DNA of 64,000 bases, from assembly GCA_026390695.1 (NCBI GenBank), contig JAPLFL010000108.1, positions 1-64,000 of the forward strand, given 5' to 3'. The DNA is from Candidatus Kapaibacterium sp. GTDB lineage: Bacteria; Bacteroidota; Ignavibacteria; Kapaibacteriales; UBA2268. Numbering within the stretch: the first letter of the stretch is position 1; each line of letters begins with the position of its first letter. This document shows positions 2,316 through 60,133 of this stretch, one piece after another. The notes beneath the pieces are model-generated. The model made no database searches. It had not been told where the DNA came from and saw nothing but the letters and a program-made list of their open reading frames with translations. A program made the translations under genes and the position numbers.

Positions 2316-2559
2316 AATGCAAAATGCAAAATGTAGAATGCAAAATGCAAAATGCAAAATGTAAAATGCAGAATGCAGAATGCAAAATGCAAAATGCAAA
2401 ATGCAAAATGCAGAATGCAAAATGCAAAATGCAGAATGCAGAATGCAAAATGCAAAATGCAAAATGCAAAATGCAGAATGCAGAATGCAAAATGCAAAAT
2501 GCAGAATGCAGAATGCAAAATGCAAAATGCAGAATGTAAAATGCAGAATGCAAAATGTT
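2316..2559. repeat. Heptanucleotide tandem array AATGCAA/AATGCAG, about 35 copies
   Basis: About 244 bases of uninterrupted 7-bp repeats: AATGCAA and AATGCAG units are mixed, with a few AATGTAA/AATGTAG variants. Because 7 is not a multiple of three but the array lacks stops, frames on both strands stay open; these are artefacts. It lies 60 bases upstream of the aminotransferase start. The mix of two variants suggests growth by slippage or unequal exchange of multi-unit blocks. Confidence 0.97.
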
Positions 2560-2589: not shown

Positions 2590-2694
2590 CCCAGATTTTT
2601 CTACATTCTATAACAGGGGGTATTGGAGATTTAAATAAGTTCCTTATTTGTGTATCATATTTCAATTACGTCAAATCTTAATGATGAATCTGGT
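2590..2694 (+). mobile_element. MITE-like element, copy A (degenerate, ~105 bp)
   Basis: The left end is CCCAGATTTTTCTACATT and the right end AATGATGAATCTGG(T), imperfect inverted termini matching the other copies. The internal part (gggagatttaa-type segment, then atttcaattacgtcaaatc) aligns with 8828-8890 and with the reverse strand of 15585-15640. The flanks tttat (2585-2589) and tttat (2695-2699) look like a 5-bp target duplication. The GC-rich centre present in the other copies is shortened. Confidence 0.7.
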
Positions 2695-8768: not shown

Positions 8769-8894
8769 CCCAGATATTTCATTAGACAATTGAAATTTCC
8801 CTTCACCCGCAAAAGAGGGGTAGGGGAGATTTAAGCAAGTTCATTAATTGCATATAAAATTTCAATTGCGTTAAATCTTAATGAAAAAGCTGGG
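8769..8894 (+). mobile_element. MITE-like element, copy B (126 bp) with 5-bp target duplication
   Basis: The left end is CCCAGATATTTCATTA and the right end TAATGAAAAAGCTGGG, imperfect inverted termini. The flanks are ttaaa (8764-8768) and ttaaa (8895-8899). The interior holds the GC-rich hairpin cccttcacccgcaaaagagg and then the segment shared with copies A and C (ggagatttaagcaagttc, atttcaattgcgttaaatc). There is no coding capacity, so any movement would need a transposase from elsewhere. Confidence 0.8.
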
Positions 8895-13329: not shown

Positions 13330-14724
13330 ATGACAACTCGTATTGAAAAAGATTCGATGGGCGATATTGAAGTTCCAACGAATGTTTATTATGGCGCCCA
13401 ATCGGCGCGTTCACTCATTCATTTTGAAATTGGCTGGGAAAAAATGCCACGTGAAGTTATCTGGGCAATGGGAACTCTTAAGAAAGCCTGTGCCTTGGCC
13501 AATGTTGAGCTTGGTGTTTTGGCTAAAGAAAAATGTGATTTAATCGTAGCCGCTGCTGATGAGGTTATCGAAGGAAAACTCGATTCTCATTTCCCGCTTT
13601 CTATCTGGCAGACCGGATCTGGTACTCAATCAAATATGAATACCAATGAAGTTATCTCTAATCGTGCAATTGAAATTGCAGGTGGAATTATGGGTAGCAA
13701 AAAGCCTGTTCATCCAAATGATGATGTGAATAAATCGCAAAGTTCCAATGATACTTTCCCAACCGCTATGCATATTGCAGCCGCTGCTGATCTTACTCAT
13801 CGCCTTTTACCCGCAGTTAAAGAATTACGCAATACCCTTGCAAAAAAGTCAGATGATTTTAAAGATATTATCAAAGTTGGTCGTACACATTTGATGGATG
13901 CAGTTCCAATGACTCTGGGACAAGAGTTTTCCGGATATGTTCACCAATTGGATAAAGGTATAGCACGAATAGAAATGGTCTTGCCGCATCTTTTTGAGCT
14001 TGCTATCGGTGGAACGGCTGTAGGAACCGGACTTAATGCGCATCCCAAATTTGCAGATACTACTGCTGCTAAGGTTGCCGAGCTCACAGGATTAGCTTTT
14101 GTCAGTGCTCCGAATAAATTTGAATCGCTTGCTGCACACGACGCTCTTGTTTTTGCTCACGGTGCATTAAAGACCTTAGCTGCATCGCTTATGAAATTTG
14201 CTAATGATATTCGTTGGCTTGCCTCCGGCCCTCGTTGTGGAATAGGGGAGATAGCTATTCCTGAAAATGAACCCGGCTCCTCAATTATGCCCGGTAAGGT
14301 TAATCCTACTCAAAGCGAGGCAATGACTATGGTTGCTGTTCAGGTTTTCGGAAATGATGCGACAATTAATTTTGCCGGTGGATCAGGTAATTTTGAGCTT
14401 AATGTTTATAAACCGGTAATTATTTATAATTTCCTTCAGAGTGTACGTTTGCTCAGTGACACCTGCCGTATGTATAATGAGCACTGTGCTATAGGTATTG
14501 AGCCAATTAGAGAGAAAATTGATTATTATGTTAAAAATACATTAATGCTCGTCACTTCGCTTAATCCTCATATTGGTTATGATAATGCTGCCAAAATTGC
14601 CAAACATGCGCATCATAGTGGCTCAACGCTGAAAGAAGCGGCTATTGAACTTGGTATTCTAAGCTCAGAGAAATTTGACGAAATAGTTCGTCCTGAAATG
14701 ATGCTTGGGCCGAATCTTGAATAA
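13330..14724 (+). CDS. fumC: Class II fumarate hydratase
   Basis: 464 residues, the family's standard length. It interconverts fumarate and malate in the TCA cycle; class II enzymes are homotetramers that need no iron-sulfur cluster. Visible motifs are [33 protein letters not shown], the [10 protein letters not shown] block with the conserved His, and the signature loop [11 protein letters not shown] (from residue 316) with the catalytic serine Ser317 or Ser318. AAAGGAAAATCAA precedes the ATG. The gene stands alone and ends in a strong terminator. Related aspartase or argininosuccinate lyase is excluded by overall motif match, and I am confident in the fumarase call. Confidence 0.96.
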
Positions 14725-14791: not shown

Positions 14792-15085
14792 CTTGTATTA
14801 AATACTAATTTGCATTCAATCGTATAAAATATTTTTAAATTCTTATTTAACTGTTTCTCAGATTGTTTGAAAATTGGAAAAATCTCAGATTTGTACTTCG
14901 GAGATATTTAACAATCTTGATTACCTTTTGGAACCGTATCCTTCATATCGCTTCAGGATGGAATTACTTTATATTTCAATTTTCTTTGATTTAACATATT
15001 AAAAATTAACTTATTTCATCTCAATTTTTTTCTTATCTCCATTTTGATCATGTTTATTGATTTAATGAAATATATTATTATATAT

Positions 15086-15352
15086 TAGAAAGCTCTTATT
15101 GCTTCAATGAGTAGTCTTATAATATATTTGAAAGCTCTTATTAGTTCTATGAGTAGTCTTATAATATATTTGAAAGCTCTTATTGGTTCTATGAGTAGTC
15201 TTATAATATATTTGAAAGCTCTTATTGCTTCAATGAGTAGTCTTATTATATATTTGAAAGCTCTTATTGCTTCAATGAGTAGTCTTATAATATATTTGAA
15301 AGCTCTTATTAGTTCTATGAGTAGTCTTATAATATATTTGAAAGCTCTTATT
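15086..15352. repeat. 42-bp tandem array, left arm of locus 2
   Basis: Six full units and one partial unit of 42 bp, each starting gaaagctcttattg (15088, 15130, 15172, 15214, 15256, 15298, 15340) and containing agtcttataatatatt. Units are near identical; variation is confined to attgcttca / attagttct / attggttct. The 42-mer can be read as two diverged 21-mers. This arm is the inverted partner of the 21-bp units that follow. Confidence 0.93.
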
Positions 15353-15359
15353 GGCATTA

Positions 15360-15790
15360 TGAATAACTTCAAAACATCAATAAGAGTATTCAAAACATCA
15401 ATAAGAGTATTCAAAACATCAATAAGAGTATTCAAAACATTAATAAGAGTATTCAAAACATTAATAAGAGTATTCAAAACATCAATAAGAGTCTTCAAAA
15501 CATCAATAAGAGTCTTCAAAACATCAATAAGATACTTCTGACTATCAATAAGTCATTTCAGAGCATTAATCCCAAATATTTCATTAAGATTTAACGTAAT
15601 TGAAATATTATATGCTAATAAAGAGCTTTCTTAAATCTCCCCTGCCCTCTTTTGCGGGTGAGGGGAATTTAGTTAAATCCCATTTTGAAAAAGGGGGTAG
15701 GGGGATTTTCTCTTGCCTAATGAAATATTTGGGTTAATAATACTTTTCAAGGTATTCATAAGGTTCTTCAAAATATCCATAATACATTGT
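15360..15790. repeat. 21-bp tandem array, right arm of locus 2, interrupted by a MITE-like element
   Basis: Units of the type ttcaaaacatcaataagagt (plus one base) repeat at exactly 21 bp from about 15368 to 15551. A partial unit ttcagagcattaat follows, then the MITE-like insertion (15571-15733). After it the array resumes with aatactt, ttcaaggtattcataagg and ttcaaaatatccataatac. If the insertion and one TTAAT are removed, every unit is 21 bp again. The reverse complement of this arm resembles the left arm's ctcttattg core. Confidence 0.9.
15571..15733 (-). mobile_element. MITE-like element, copy C (163 bp), inserted in the 21-bp array
   Basis: The left terminus CCCAAATATTTCATTA (15571-15586) and right terminus TAATGAAATATTTGGG (15718-15733) are perfect 16-bp inverted repeats. 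The flanks are TTAAT (15566-15570) and TTAAT (15734-15738). The interior, read on the minus strand, holds aatccccctacccccttttt, cacccgcaaaagagggcag and the segment shared with copies A and B. It has no open frame of note. Confidence 0.9.
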
Positions 15791-15810
15791 GATCATTTTT
15801 ATATAAAAAA

Positions 15811-15840
15811 AAAGCCTCCGTCTTTCGACAGAGGCTTTTT
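15811..15840. terminator. Bidirectional rho-independent terminator
   Basis: The stem agcctccgtc / gacagaggct (one mismatch) with loop TTTC lies at 15813-15836. On the minus strand it is followed by a run of nine T; on the plus strand by TTTTTATTTT. It lies about 20 bases past the stop of the minus-strand T9SS gene. Confidence 0.92.
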
Positions 15841-15859: not shown

Positions 15860-18800
15860 TTAACGAATAATTGACAATTTAATTGCTGCGGTTGCATCGT
15901 CAGTTTTTACTTTGAAGATGTAAGTACCGCTGGATACTTTGTTACCATTTTGATCTTTGCCATCCCATTCGAATTGATGTGCGCCTTTAGTTTGAACATT
16001 TGCGTCAATAGATTTGATAACATTACCGAATAAATCGATAACATCAACATTAACGAATTGATCAAGTGGAAGGACTACATTTACGACTGTGATAGAATTG
16101 TCAGAAACAGGGTTTGCTGATTGAAGTTCAACTAAAAGATTAGCAACCTGATCCATAGTCTTGGTTAATTCATCTTTAAGCGGGCAACTTTGGGTTCCAT
16201 CTGCTGCAACTTCAACAAGACGATATTGATAAGTTGTTCCATATTGAACTTTGGTATCGGTATAATTGTAGTTATTAGCTACAGCAGAATTACCATGACC
16301 AGCAACGAAGGAAAGTGTATTCCATTTTTCTTCACCACTTAATCTTCTTTCAACATAGAAACCTTTGCAGTTTTCTTCTTGTGCTGTTTCCCAGAAGAGA
16401 TCAATACCGCTGTTGCGAACAACACCATCAAATGATGTTACTTTAACAGCTTCAATAAAATCGCAAGTCTGGTAAGCATCTTCGATTTTGCCATAAGAGC
16501 GTGGGCCAAGATATGGGTGAATCATAGGGATCCAAGTACCTCTGGAAGCTGTTAGGGTATAACCGTCAACATAAGTTGTACCAGCATGGTTTAAGTGAGC
16601 ATAAGCTGGGTTACCTGAGGATGGCATGAACTGATACCATGTACCGGAACCTTTAGTATTCTCAAAGCAGAACAAGTTATTATTGAGTGAAGAGGTAGGA
16701 TCAGAAGGATTAATTCTGCGGAAGTTCTTCTCAATCATCATTGAATAACCGCTTTGACCTAAAACGTAAGTATTAGGATCATAATAATAGTTAGTAGTTC
16801 TCATACCCATGTTGTTTTGTGAAGCACCTAATTCAATACCGGTTTCACCTAATTGTGCTAATGCAATCCAATATGTTCCTGCATTAAGAATTAGTGGTTG
16901 TTTTGAAGGCATCAAATAAGTTACATAAGCATCGAAAATACCGTTCTGGCCACCCTTGGAATCATCAACACCTCTTTGACGATAGAGCTGAGAATTAGGG
17001 ATTAATTGACCTGGCTGAACATTACCCTGATCTTGATAAGTTCCAACTGAAACGTCATCAGGAGCTTGGTTTTTCTTACCGTATAATGCTTGATATCCAT
17101 AAATAGTATCAGCAGCTAAAAGTTGGAATTTCATTGCAAATTGTCCGGAACCGTCACCACCGGTTGTACCGAATTCATAGTCTTTTATCCAAGGTGGTGA
17201 TGCAAATGGTACGTTTGATCCCATACCACCGATTTGATAACCAGATAAGTTTAAGCCACGACCATAGATAATCTGTCCGTCATTAAATGGCGATGTAAAT
17301 GTAGGAACATCGTTTTGTGGGTTAGATACCGGATCGTATGCAAAATAATTACCGAAGTTCAAAGTAACTTCTGAATAAGTAGTATCGTTCTTAGCTTCAA
17401 GATCCATACCAGGAATTTCAAGATAGCTTAACATAGTGTATGTGCCGGGGCCGGAAGCTCTTGCATTCCATGATGGCATGTGTACTATTGTTTCTAAGTT
17501 TGGCTGTAAAGTTGATGGAGTTTCTGTACGGCAATAAACTGCTTGTGGTCTGTTTGGATTACCAAGTGAATCTTTAAATTGATTCCATTGGCTCATAATT
17601 TCGTCGGCTTTGCCTTTGAAAATTCTAACGTGAACCATAAATGTTGCTCCAGTAAGAGCTGTATTATTGCTTATACGAACGGTAACAGGTATTTGAGTTG
17701 CCTGTGAAGCAGGAGCCATTGTATATGGCCAAAGAATATCCACGGAAGTTACTTCAAGGTCAGTTACTTCAGCAGGGTAAAGCAATTTTACGTTATCCAC
17801 GTAGAAATCGTCAAAGTCATCAGGAATACATGTTGAGCATTTCAAATCTTTCTTTGCTTGAACATTTACTCTGAATCGGAAGTTCTTAGCACCTTGTTTG
17901 CTGGATTTAATAACAGTATCAGGAACTGGAATGAAGCCTTTAACATAAGTATAGTCAATACCTTCATCATAGTTATTCGGACGGTATCCGTTTTTAACAG
18001 TAGTTGTTGGTGCGGCTAATGAAGAGTCTTTATCAGTTTCCAAATAACCTCTGAAATATCCGTTTGATCCCCATAAAGCGTAATCAGGAACATTTGTATA
18101 TGCTGCACGTCCGCCGCGACCTGGATGGTTGCGCCATCTGGCTGTTGGAATATTACATATATATTGAACACCGTCTGGGCTTGGCTGTGCATATTCAACA
18201 TCAATTTCATCACCTGTGCCGGAAGCAGCCTGAGCCGGATTCCAACGGGTAAGAGGATTTGTGTTCATCATAGTTCTTGGTTCGGGAGCAATCAATGATT
18301 GATCGCACCATCCACGTGGCCATTGATCTGCTTTGGCTGCACGTTGGAAGGAAATTGAAAGAACTGAGTTATATCTTGGCACTGGATTAAGCAAGTTAAT
18401 CGGGAATGAACGTATCTGGTCTCCACCTGGGGATCCGGCAGGTTCATTGCTATATAAGTCAACTCTGTTCATGTGGATGACAGGTGATCTTACTACATAA
18501 TAGTTAGCTTTTGTAAGTGTATCAAAATTCTTTGCAATATATTCGCCGCGTGGAGCAAGTGGATGTTTTGAAACTTCATCACCGCTTAAAACGTCAGCGT
18601 CAATATTTACCCATTTTAATACTGAAGGCATTGCAACACCTTCGACATAATGGAACTCAGTTACATCATCATTGAAGTCATTGAGTCTTTTCATTACGAA
18701 CAAACGCACACTGGTTGTGTCATCGAATGGCCATTGGCTACCGAGACCATCACCAGTTGTTGGATTTGTAGGATCAGCAATAATATATGAACGTAAGCGA

Positions 18801-20674
18801 CCAATTTGATTTTCAACAAATTCATTTGGCTCGAATGGTGGGAAATAAACCTGAACGAAGCCATATGGTGGAACGCCATTAATTGGTCTTCCATTAGCCA
18901 TCCAAGGGTTGATTGCTGTTTCACCGCTTTGTACTCTTGGAGCATAATTTGTTGCGGTATAGTTTCCTGAAGCTTTTACTACAGTTGAATAACGTACTTT
19001 AATTGCAGGATCGCCTGAGCAATTCTGTAATGAATCATAGCAAGTTGCAAGGCATAAAGAATCAATCGAAACTAAACGGTTATAAACGATTCTCTGATTT
19101 GCAAGATTGACGATTCTGAATCTGGCTCTGAACTTCAAGTTCTGAGGTGTAAAGTTTACACCGTTTGGACCTTGAATCTGATTTGTTAAATTTTGGAGAA
19201 GAGCAACCGGTTGAATTGCACCGATTCTTGATTCACCGGCTAACAATTCATAATCAGGTACTGATGTCGTAGGAACGATTACTGAGAATTGCATATCGGC
19301 GTTTGGATCTTGTTGTCTGACTCTGTACTGGATGTCAACAACGCGGACAGGGTTTTTCCATTGTTTGAATCTTACTGCTAAGTATTCGTGAGGAATACCT
19401 GCTGCTGTTGTCTGCCAGTAAGTATAATAATGTGTGTATTGCTGATATTCTGCATACCATGGGGTGACTGGTCCGCCAACTTCACCATAATTGGTATGAC
19501 GGGCAAAACCACGAACACCGGCTGTGGTATTGTAACGATAGACGATTCTTGCGGGAACGCCACGGCCACCAACAACTGCAGCACCTTCGAATGCTTCATA
19601 AATGATAATTACACTTGAATCTTTACCATCTAAAATAACCTGTGCTTTTGCACTGGTGTAATTACTTTCACCGAGACGTGCATCAACAGGAGCGTTATAA
19701 GATCCATAAGGAGTTGAAAGTGTTCCCTTTATCATATAATTGACAAAGTAAATAAGAATTTTATTATTTGTAGAAAATCTTCTGTAATAGACTTTTCCAA
19801 AATCATTGATCTGTCTTGTTGTCGGGTAGTATTGTGATAATAATCCGTCTGCCCAGAAAGGTGCAATGACAGCGGCTCCGTTAGGTAATGCCTGTAAACC
19901 GTTACCGTTGGCAGGAGACCTGATTCCACCAGTTGGATTGGAAAATTCCTGATTACCGTTTATAGTATAAACATAACCAAAGTTATCAGCATTACCATCG
20001 GATATTCCGTTGCCAGAACGACCACCACGGATGAACCAGTCCATACTCATTGGGTCGTAGCAATCGGTATTACCGGGAGGTATTGATCTTACACCACCGT
20101 TATACAAGTATCTTCTGTTAGTCAATGCTATCAAACCATTTGTAGAAACATAGAATGAATCATACGAAATACCATTAAAATAAAATTTGAAGTTTAATGG
20201 CATTGGGCCTGCAAAAGCATTGTCAGTTGAATCCGTTGCGTTGATGTCACCGTCACTGAAAAAGTTACGGCCACCGGTCGGATAGTAAGGATTACGGAAG
20301 AATCTCAACCCTTCGTCTGGATTACTTGGCCAATATGATGCAGGGACCATTCTTGGGCCTTGATAAATTCTTTTCCAATAAGCTGTTTCTTCTAAGGTGT
20401 CAAGGACAGTAGAACTTGCTTTCCAGAAATCTGGTGCATCGTCATCACTGTCAACATAATAATAACCTGTAGAAATAGCAGGTTGTGAAGCATACGGATT
20501 ACTAGTCTCCGTAAATGGGGCAGGATAAGTTGTATTACCCCCAAGTGGAGCAGCAGGATCAACTAATGCGCTTTTACGCAGTAGTTCATTGCTGTTTTTG
20601 TCCCCATTGCCGGCAAAAGCCACCGACCCTAGCATAGCTATGGTTAAAGCAATGAGTAAAAAGTACTTTTTCAT
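15860..20674 (-). CDS. Very large secreted protein with FlgD-Ig-type T9SS sorting domain
   Basis: An open frame runs to 20722, but I place the start at 20674, where MKKYFLLIALTIAMLGSVAF is a clean signal peptide and GGAG lies seven bases upstream; this gives about 1,604 residues. The body is rich in Asn, Gly, Pro and aromatic residues and probably all-beta. Near the C-terminus there is a fibronectin-III-like segment (IDLFWETAQEENCKGFYVER to YQYRLVEVAADGTQ). The last ~85 residues resemble a FlgD-Ig fold (VDVIDLFGNVIKSI, FEWDGKDQNGNKVSSGTYIF), used as a T9SS sorting domain. Function is unknown; a surface structural role is plausible. A strong terminator follows. Confidence 0.85.
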   Translation of the reverse strand: MKKYFLLIALTIAMLGSVAFAGNGDKNSNELLRKSALVDPAAPLGGNTTYPAPFTETSNPYASQPAISTGYYYVDSDDDAPDFWKASSTVLDTLEETAYWKRIYQGPRMVPASYWPSNPDEGLRFFRNPYYPTGGRNFFSDGDINATDSTDNAFAGPMPLNFKFYFNGISYDSFYVSTNGLIALTNRRYLYNGGVRSIPPGNTDCYDPMSMDWFIRGGRSGNGISDGNADNFGYVYTINGNQEFSNPTGGIRSPANGNGLQALPNGAAVIAPFWADGLLSQYYPTTRQINDFGKVYYRRFSTNNKILIYFVNYMIKGTLSTPYGSYNAPVDARLGESNYTSAKAQVILDGKDSSVIIIYEAFEGAAVVGGRGVPARIVYRYNTTAGVRGFARHTNYGEVGGPVTPWYAEYQQYTHYYTYWQTTAAGIPHEYLAVRFKQWKNPVRVVDIQYRVRQQDPNADMQFSVIVPTTSVPDYELLAGESRIGAIQPVALLQNLTNQIQGPNGVNFTPQNLKFRARFRIVNLANQRIVYNRLVSIDSLCLATCYDSLQNCSGDPAIKVRYSTVVKASGNYTATNYAPRVQSGETAINPWMANGRPINGVPPYGFVQVYFPPFEPNEFVENQIGRLRSYIIADPTNPTTGDGLGSQWPFDDTTSVRLFVMKRLNDFNDDVTEFHYVEGVAMPSVLKWVNIDADVLSGDEVSKHPLAPRGEYIAKNFDTLTKANYYVVRSPVIHMNRVDLYSNEPAGSPGGDQIRSFPINLLNPVPRYNSVLSISFQRAAKADQWPRGWCDQSLIAPEPRTMMNTNPLTRWNPAQAASGTGDEIDVEYAQPSPDGVQYICNIPTARWRNHPGRGGRAAYTNVPDYALWGSNGYFRGYLETDKDSSLAAPTTTVKNGYRPNNYDEGIDYTYVKGFIPVPDTVIKSSKQGAKNFRFRVNVQAKKDLKCSTCIPDDFDDFYVDNVKLLYPAEVTDLEVTSVDILWPYTMAPASQATQIPVTVRISNNTALTGATFMVHVRIFKGKADEIMSQWNQFKDSLGNPNRPQAVYCRTETPSTLQPNLETIVHMPSWNARASGPGTYTMLSYLEIPGMDLEAKNDTTYSEVTLNFGNYFAYDPVSNPQNDVPTFTSPFNDGQIIYGRGLNLSGYQIGGMGSNVPFASPPWIKDYEFGTTGGDGSGQFAMKFQLLAADTIYGYQALYGKKNQAPDDVSVGTYQDQGNVQPGQLIPNSQLYRQRGVDDSKGGQNGIFDAYVTYLMPSKQPLILNAGTYWIALAQLGETGIELGASQNNMGMRTTNYYYDPNTYVLGQSGYSMMIEKNFRRINPSDPTSSLNNNLFCFENTKGSGTWYQFMPSSGNPAYAHLNHAGTTYVDGYTLTASRGTWIPMIHPYLGPRSYGKIEDAYQTCDFIEAVKVTSFDGVVRNSGIDLFWETAQEENCKGFYVERRLSGEEKWNTLSFVAGHGNSAVANNYNYTDTKVQYGTTYQYRLVEVAADGTQSCPLKDELTKTMDQVANLLVELQSANPVSDNSITVVNVVLPLDQFVNVDVIDLFGNVIKSIDANVQTKGAHQFEWDGKDQNGNKVSSGTYIFKVKTDDATAAIKLSIIR

Positions 20675-20718
20675 TAAAAACTCCGATAAATAGTGGAACA
20701 AAAAAAAATTTATAAAAT

Positions 20719-22407
20719 TCAACGTTTAAATCTCCATCCTTTTTCCTCGAATTCAAAAATCCAGCCGACAATCTTTCCTTCATCCATTGTTTCAAAATTC
20801 TCCCAATAGTCTTTATTGTAACTATGTCTTGAACTTGTCTCAAAGTCAGGAACAGTTTGTGCATCTGCAATAATCTTGCCTAAAATTTCTTTCCATTTTT
20901 GGAAATTAGTTTTTCTGAGATCAAGCCAGGCAGAATAGCACCAATTTTCGATATTCTCTGCATTTATTTCAAGTAATTCTCCCTTATTAACAGGGATTTT
21001 TACTTCTTTTCCTCTTAAATATGTTTTTCCATCTTTTAATAGTATGACTAATCCTATGGAAACTGCTTCTGATCTTAGTTGCTTATCATTGATGATGATA
21101 ATTTCGGCTTGTTCAGCCAACTGATCAGCACTATAATTAAAAATATTTTTCATAGATCCGATGATTCTTCGGATCAGATGCGCTTCATACAATAATTTTG
21201 AAAGTCTCGGCGGCCCTAATAGTTCAAAAGCTATACTGTTGCAGTTGTTCTGGTTTTCAAGTGATCTGAGTTTCTTTAAGGCAACATTTTGAAGTAATCC
21301 GCCTCTGTAGCTTGGTCCCAAAGTGCTACTATCTAATCCTTGAATAATATCATGTCCGCTGTTTCCTCCCAAAATCTCAAATACGGCATTGTCAGCAATT
21401 TCTTCGGGTGTTACAATCTCCATTTGTCCAAGTGAGCTTATTGCCTGAAATTCTGCTGCTGAAAATATTCCATTTTCTCCGGTATCAATAAAAACTGACT
21501 TTAAATCAGTGCCCAGTTCATCTATTCCTGCCGGATCATCAAAATTAAATATTCCCGAAAGTTGTCTTGCTGCTTCAGGAGCCATATCATATAGTTTAAT
21601 TGGCTTGCCTGATCTATTGACTGTCCCGTATTCAATTTTCTTCCATGCTATAGCGGCTGTAGGCTTTATTTCCTTAACTATCGGGCCATTGGGTGTGCGA
21701 GCCATCAGAAAAAGTAAAAGTGACATTGCACCACCTACTGCGGCTTTAGCAAGTAACACACGTGAAGGTTTTTCTTCACTATGAGTATATGGAATATTCA
21801 ATCCCATTCCACCTGTTCCGCTGGTCCCTATTTTCAAAAACATAGATGCAGAGCCATCAATCAAGCCACGATAATAAATCTGAATATGTCTGATCAGCTG
21901 AGGAATATAATCGCTAACGAGCATCAGTTCAACCGTTTCATTGCTTGTAGTGCCGTGATTAATTTCGTTGATGAGCTTAGCAGAACTTGTGTAAATATCC
22001 TGATAAGCTATTCCTGTGGCCGTGTTTATACAATCAATCACTATATTTGGCTTATACTTTGTAAGAAGTCTGTATAGTTCACTGGATTTAAGAATATCTT
22101 CATTAAGTTCTCCGAAAATATCAGATATAACTATTTTTCTTTTGTTCTCATCAGAAATAACTGAGTTCCAGTGCTCGTTTCGCCAATCAGTCCGTGAAAA
22201 TATATTTCCCCATTCTGCAATAAACATTCCAGGATTATAATCACAGTATTCTTGACGTAGCTGCTGTACAGCTTCTTCGGCTTCAGATTTTTTTAAGGAA
22301 GTTACTATCAATTGTGAAGGATTATGTTCGATTAATTTATGGCAAATAGCTGAGCCAACCAAGCCCCAGCCGCCTAAAATTAAAATTCGAGATCCTTTAA
22401 TATTCAT
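20719..22407 (-). CDS. SDR-family NAD(P)-binding protein with long C-terminal extension
   Basis: 562 residues. The N-terminus RILILGGWGLVGSAICHKL is a Rossmann dinucleotide-binding motif (GGxGxxG type). Further blocks typical of extended short-chain dehydrogenases include IVIDCINTATGIAYQDIY near residue 135 and LKIGTSGTGGMGLNIPYTHS near 200. About 330 residues follow the Rossmann part, much longer than ordinary epimerases (300-350 in total), so this is not a standard sugar epimerase; the substrate is unknown. It is cytosolic. It lies 44 bases upstream of the large T9SS gene on the same strand and may share its transcript. Confidence 0.7.
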   Translation of the reverse strand: MNIKGSRILILGGWGLVGSAICHKLIEHNPSQLIVTSLKKSEAEEAVQQLRQEYCDYNPGMFIAEWGNIFSRTDWRNEHWNSVISDENKRKIVISDIFGELNEDILKSSELYRLLTKYKPNIVIDCINTATGIAYQDIYTSSAKLINEINHGTTSNETVELMLVSDYIPQLIRHIQIYYRGLIDGSASMFLKIGTSGTGGMGLNIPYTHSEEKPSRVLLAKAAVGGAMSLLLFLMARTPNGPIVKEIKPTAAIAWKKIEYGTVNRSGKPIKLYDMAPEAARQLSGIFNFDDPAGIDELGTDLKSVFIDTGENGIFSAAEFQAISSLGQMEIVTPEEIADNAVFEILGGNSGHDIIQGLDSSTLGPSYRGGLLQNVALKKLRSLENQNNCNSIAFELLGPPRLSKLLYEAHLIRRIIGSMKNIFNYSADQLAEQAEIIIINDKQLRSEAVSIGLVILLKDGKTYLRGKEVKIPVNKGELLEINAENIENWCYSAWLDLRKTNFQKWKEILGKIIADAQTVPDFETSSRHSYNKDYWENFETMDEGKIVGWIFEFEEKGWRFKR

Positions 22408-46416: not shown

Positions 46417-46442
46417 CAAATCATAATGAAAAATCTGGGTTT
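46417..46442. repeat. Possible solo end of the MITE-like family
   Basis: aaatcataatgaaaaatctg followed by ggttt matches the right end of the MITE-like copies (AAATCTTAATGA...CTGGGTT). No left end lies nearby, so it is a fragment or a chance match. Confidence 0.35.
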
Positions 46443-59732: not shown

Positions 59733-60133
59733 TGTCATTCCTTCGTATGAGTTTGTGTGAAAACTTCAATTTCTGTCATTCCTGCGAATGAGACTGTGTG
59801 AAAACTTCAATTTCTGTCATTCCTGCGAATGAGACTGTGTGAAAACTTCAATTTCTGTCATTCCTGCCAATGAGACTGTGTGAAAACGTCAATTTCTGTC
59901 ATTCCTGCGAATGAGACTGTGTGAAAACGTCAATTTCTGTCATTCCTGCGAATGAGACTGTGTGAAAACGTCGAAAACGTCAATTTCTGTCATTCCTGCG
60001 AATGCAGGAATCCCCTGATTGGCACTGGCACGGGATTCCTGCATGCGAGGGAATGACAATTCAGTATAAGTTGTAAGTTTTTACATAAGCTGAAGCGCAG
60101 TAATGACAGAATTTGAATATTTTCACACAGTCT
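59733..60133. repeat. 41-bp tandem array leading into composite REP-like palindrome, copy 3
   Basis: Starts of tgtcattcctgcga-type units lie at 59733, 59774, 59815, 59856, 59897 and 59938, exactly 41 bp apart; the next, at 59988, is 50 bp away because tcgaaaacg is duplicated. Each unit contains gactgtgtgaaaac. The last copy opens the compact palindrome 59988-60058, after which inverted partners follow (gtttttacat, gcgcagtaatgacag, tttcacacagtctc). It fills the gap between the OmpA gene and gcvT. There are no variable spacers, so it is not CRISPR. Confidence 0.93.

Follow-up and report, generated by a model that had tools for sequence, protein, structure and literature searches.

The locus analyzed here raises the question of whether a 163-bp sequence that breaks an array of 21-bp units arrived there by transposition and, if so, which enzyme moved it. 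It lies in a contig of Candidatus Kapaibacterium sp. (JAPLFL010000108.1 of assembly GCA_026390695.1), of which the stretch from position 1 to 64,000, hereafter the window, was analyzed.

Structure and Location of the Element

The following features were identified at the locus (TIR, terminal inverted repeat; TSD, target site duplication):

15368..15570, + strand: 21-bp array, left part, broken by the element
15566..15570, unstranded: left TSD, TTAAT
15571..15733, unstranded: body of the element, 163 bp, non-coding, 4.3% divergence from the family consensus
15571..15586, + strand: left TIR, CCCAAATATTTCATTA, 16 nt
15630..15713, unstranded: internal G+C-rich hairpin module (CCCCT..GAGGGG / CCC..GGGGGTAGGGGG)
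15718..15733, − strand: right TIR, TAATGAAATATTTGGG, 16 nt
15734..15738, unstranded: right TSD, TTAAT
15739..15786, + strand: 21-bp array, right part, degenerate, in register once 168 bp are removed

A repeat search of the window found the two 16-nt arms to be 100% complementary with a spacing of 131 nt, and the sequence at 15566–15738 bears out the original prediction of perfect 16-bp inverted ends with TTAAT on either side. The element contains no ORF of at least 100 aa in the ORF list and matched no Rfam family. It is located in the intergenic gap between a fumarase-type lyase gene (13330–14724, +) and a convergent gene for a very large protein with an FlgD_ig domain (15860–20722, −). TIRs, a TSD of mostly fixed length, a short body without a transposase gene, dispersed copies, and an empty site were all found, which are the features of a miniature inverted-repeat transposable element (MITE).

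Dispersed Copies and Target Preference

When all 129 contigs of the genome (4.63 Mb) were searched with the 163 bp, 50 matches were obtained, about 13 of which are full length or nearly so; this is far beyond chance. Based on genome searches and fetched stretches, about twenty copies are flanked by TSDs. TIR ends with at most two mismatches occurred 70 times across the genome, versus 12 times for a reversed control pattern. The expectation that paired inverted ends would recur elsewhere in the genome was confirmed by many such pairs, each of which has its own 5-bp TSD.

Target sites were compared in 18 TIR-bounded copies with unrelated flanks (126–436 bp long), comprising 12 full-length copies and six internal-length variants of 126, 169, 213, 273, 348, and 436 bp; a thirteenth copy (L011), whose right end has decayed, was excluded from this count. 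Sixteen of the 18 copies have a perfect 5-bp TSD, and the other two show a single-base mismatch. All TSDs conform to WTWAW: in each of the 18 left flanks, the second base is T and the fourth is A. WTWAW accounts for 5.4% of pentamers in the flanking DNA. The copies diverge by 2.5–9% from the consensus and no two are identical, suggesting that activity was spread over time and was probably not very recent. Together with the lack of an intact IS1380 gene in the assembly (see below), this divergence suggests that the family is now probably inactive or nearly so.

The window itself holds three more members or remnants of the family:

8769..8894, unstranded: second member, 126 bp, TSD TTAAA/TTAAA, also between convergent genes
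2590..2694, unstranded: decayed member, about 105 bp, TTTAT on both sides, ends read by eye
46424..46439, − strand: isolated family end, CCCAGATTTTTCATTA, without a visible partner

The decayed member adjoins an array of AATGCAA-type heptamers (window 2316–2557, about 34 copies).

Array Phase and Empty Sites

As originally described, the element sits in the middle of a 21-bp unit, which it splits into 14 and 7 bases, and its excision together with one TTAAT yields TTCAGAGCATTAATAATACTT, in register with the units on both sides. The array rejoined after this 168-bp removal reads TTCAGAGCATTAATAATACTT and then TTCAAGGTATTCATAAGGTTC, both of which are recognizable 21-bp units; taking out the 163-bp element alone leaves a 5-base slip. 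The original prediction regarded such exact restoration of phase as nearly direct proof of transposition, which was giving it too much weight. The element and one TSD add up to 163 + 5 = 168 = 8 × 21 bp, and the two halves of the array share the same register even with the insert present (repeat spacing 210). Thus, phase distinguishes the removal of 168 bp from the removal of 163 bp, but not from the removal of nothing; it shows just that one TTAAT must leave with the element and by itself proves little. Because 168 is 8 × 21, proof of mobility must come from outside the array phase. As 163 bp is the norm of the family, this length match is a 1-in-21 coincidence.

The comparison of empty and filled sites suggested by the original prediction was possible within this genome, for copy L006. 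This copy interrupts a second dispersed repeat (GACGAGGACGTCTGTTCTACTTTGATTTATAGTAGCTTAG...), of which at least four empty copies are present in the genome. The joined flanks of L006 are 92–96% identical to four empty repeats over 119 bp across the junction, where the empty repeats have a single TTTAT and the filled site has two. This pair is stronger proof of mobility than the 21-bp array. The repeat that serves as the empty site is about 120 bp long, has inverted parts of the GACGAGGACGTCTGTTCTA/TAGAACAGACGTCCTCGTC type, and was located in the following stretches:

L059, 3561–3677
L003, 1228–1345
L005, 1758–1875
L006, 851–968

Another copy, L007, is nested in a roughly 79%-similar and older copy from its own family.

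It could also be argued that the element never moved, and that part of the 21-bp array diverged and became a palindrome in place. The insert and TSD measure exactly 8 × 21 bp with the array register unbroken, and a GAAAGCTCTT(T)ATTAG motif is common to the 42-bp array and the element, as such an origin would have it. However, the 163-bp sequence is found at a dozen unrelated sites with individual TSDs, and empty counterparts are known for one filled site, leaving the length as just the coincidence noted above. The dispersed copies with TSDs already refute a non-mobile origin, to which we attach practically no credence. That the element is a MITE which transposed into an already existing 21-bp array is supported by its dispersed TSD-flanked copies and by the empty/filled pair within the genome.

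A Candidate Mobilizer from the IS1380 Family

The dispersed copies, their TSDs and preferred target, and the pairing of a filled site with empty ones in this genome are direct observations. We consider it highly probable that the element is a non-coding MITE mobilized in trans by an IS1380-family transposase and inserted at WTWAW with a 5-bp stagger. Such a transposase would recognize the 16-bp ends in trans and insert the MITE at WTWAW pentamers; gap filling at the putative 5-bp staggered cut would then duplicate the target pentamer and yield the TSD. At 15571, the MITE landed in the TTAAT of a 21-bp unit already present between the two convergent genes.

The role of IS1380 is suggested by the ends of its members. 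IS1380 genes in related genomes, as well as a decayed gene here, end in CCC[A/G]AATWATxCATTAG-like repeats. In genome G069, a gene assigned to IS1380 (NF033539, 219 bits vs a cut-off of 180) runs directly into CTAATGCATAATTCGGG, followed by ATTAA. A decayed IS1380 copy in G049 ends in CCCAAATTATGCATTAG, with unmatched flanks. Some 25 CCCAAATAATTCATTA ends are present in G015, most of them no more than about 230 bp from the end of a contig, the pattern that a collapsed multicopy IS would give. About eleven of the G015 ends (CCCAAATAATTCATTAG) have a C-terminal coding fragment on one side; where alignable, these fragments are 47–48% identical to the G069 protein. The sole IS1380-like gene found in the genome under study is a broken remnant on contig C32 (PF13701, 44.5 bits), with CCCAGATTAATCATTAG about 130 bp past the last PF13701 match. 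A scan of a collection of genome contigs with the G069 transposase matched only its own record.

The original prediction called for a transposase with matching terminal repeats. Similar ends were found next to IS1380-family genes, identical ones were not: the MITE ends share 12–15 of 16 bases with those adjacent to IS1380 or IS1380-like coding sequence in G069, G049, G015, and C32. No intact IS1380 with exactly the MITE ends was found in this assembly, and none with two matching ends and matching TSDs is assembled among the related copies, as the IS in G015 lacks its interior and the one in G049 has decayed. In a random control, a TIR-like end with at most four mismatches occurred by chance in about 3.5% of 180-bp stretches, which is an overestimate because the pool contains some MITEs. 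At this rate a single weak case is unconvincing, and several independent cases together make chance unlikely. Short subterminal MITE matches in G015:C10 and G007:C205 were rejected as IS ends and attributed to chance, one lying within a protein gene and the other having no end.

The 5-bp duplication also agrees with described IS1380 elements: IS1247 has 16/13-bp inverted repeats and a 5-bp direct repeat (PMC3281130), and ISEcp1 generates 5-bp duplications at A+T-rich targets (PMC2887853). The pathway of IS1380 has been described as unresolved (PMC9330008). Resemblance of the ends suggests that IS1380 is the likely mobilizer, with support that is good though incomplete.

A true MITE might also be moved by another IS family, for example by the intact IS5-family gene on contig C124 (338 aa, NF033581, 243 bits) or by an unassembled IS, and the assembly indeed contains no intact IS1380. 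Nevertheless, CCCAAATAATTCATTA-like ends are absent from the C124 and C31 stretches at up to three mismatches (including stretch L091, adjoining the C124 transposase gene), the inverted repeats around both look unlike the MITE ends, and several IS1380 genes in related genomes bear MITE-like ends. Mobilization by a family other than IS1380 is thus quite unlikely. The PF01609 search of this genome yielded one intact IS5-family gene and one broken gene, neither with matching ends, and a 494-aa IS1634-like gene of G051, whose family was judged by eye, was rejected for want of a matching end.

Intergenic Placement and a Possible Terminator Role

Among 16 copies whose context could be called from mechanically predicted ORFs, 10 lie between convergent ORFs, four between tandem and two between divergent ones, and none is inside an ORF. 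Selection against damage explains this intergenic placing. In addition to being mobile, the MITE could be retained because transcripts from convergent genes would be terminated at its G+C-rich hairpin. Besides the preference for convergent gaps, the predicted fold of the element (−57 kcal/mol, z = −5.5, strong on either strand with z about −5.5) and one terminator-like site within it are consistent with this role. On the other hand, a separate and better terminator is present at 15809–15840, convergent gaps are also the least harmful insertion sites, and the TIRs and palindromes alone account for the strong fold. Terminator function is a possible, candidate role, and we regard retention for this reason as unlikely.

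Relationship to Known Systems

The element is an ordinary, well-documented kind of genome parasite. Like other bacterial MITEs, the family is short, non-coding, dispersed, and intergenic, with perfect TIRs, fixed-length TSDs, and internal length variants. It differs in its sequence, which is new relative to the two sets searched: the plasmid collection gave no match at all, and 40 related genomes gave none of full length.

With the IS1380 family (IS1247, ISPme1, ISEcp1, and the G069 and G049 copies), it shares the 5-bp duplication, and the IS1380 ends of related genomes begin with CCC and resemble those of the MITE. In contrast to IS1380, the MITE has no transposase gene, its 16-bp ends show 1–4 mismatches to those of the IS, and the autonomous copy in this genome has decayed. 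Only two papers in the literature searched mention the IS1380 family alongside MITEs, and neither abstract describes IS1380 MITEs.

IS1380 transposases have been described as distant relatives of piggyBac, a superfamily that targets TTAA and usually has CCC at the start of its ends (PMC10140906). TTAA occupies positions 1–4 of the left TSD in 7 of the 18 MITE copies and positions 2–5 in four more; however, the MITE duplicates a 5-bp WTWAW rather than a 4-bp TTAA, and piggyBac is eukaryotic. The resemblance may serve as a lead, not a test. It is very doubtful that IS1380 transposases and their MITEs share with piggyBac a strict palindromic T.A-type target (WTWAW vs TTAA) and are capable of scarless excision; if they did and were, prokaryotic MITEs of IS1380 type would insert and leave seamlessly.

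As a bacterial MITE family with empty/filled site pairs in the same genome, the family is a clean example of its kind. For the Bacteroidetes/Chlorobi group, it would connect MITEs with ends of IS1380 type, and its WTWAW target rule is precise enough to be tested. The IS1380 link, this rule, the empty sites within the genome, and the correction of the phase argument are additions to the original prediction.

Interior Module and Related Elements in Other Genomes

The middle of the element consists of two G+C-rich palindromes. Similar palindromes without MITE ends occur in genomes G014 and G021, both from the same bacterial family, implying that the module is an independent repeat acquired by the MITE, or the reverse. 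In both genomes, free-standing hairpins of the AAATCCCCCCTACCCCC...GGGGGTAGGGGGGATTT type number in the dozens and often form inverted pairs (G014: L031, L035, L037, L039, L041, and L043; G021: L032, L036, and L042). One copy of the MITE, L013, has a 42-bp tandem duplication of part of the hairpin module.

Genomes G001, G015, and G051 each have elements of their own whose ends are sisters of the MITE ends (CCCAAATAATTCATTA, CCCAAATTATTCATTA), and some of those in G001 have 5-bp duplications (ATAAT/ATAAT and TTCAA/TTCAA). Such ends thus recur in the bacterial family, with differing interiors. G001 (L093–L107) is rich in elements with CCCAAATAATTCATTA and CCCAAATAATGCAATA ends; several are nested, some are near 142 bp, and their interiors differ from that of the window element.

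Two further arrays were observed in the window. The unit of a 42-bp array at 15075–15353 (GAAAGCTCTTATTAG) has a 15–16-base motif in common with the MITE interior (15621–15636, reverse strand GAAAGCTCTTTATTAG), and a 41-bp tandem array (TGTCATTCCTGCGAATGAGACTGTG...) at 59733–59969 has 5.8 copies with a 96% match.
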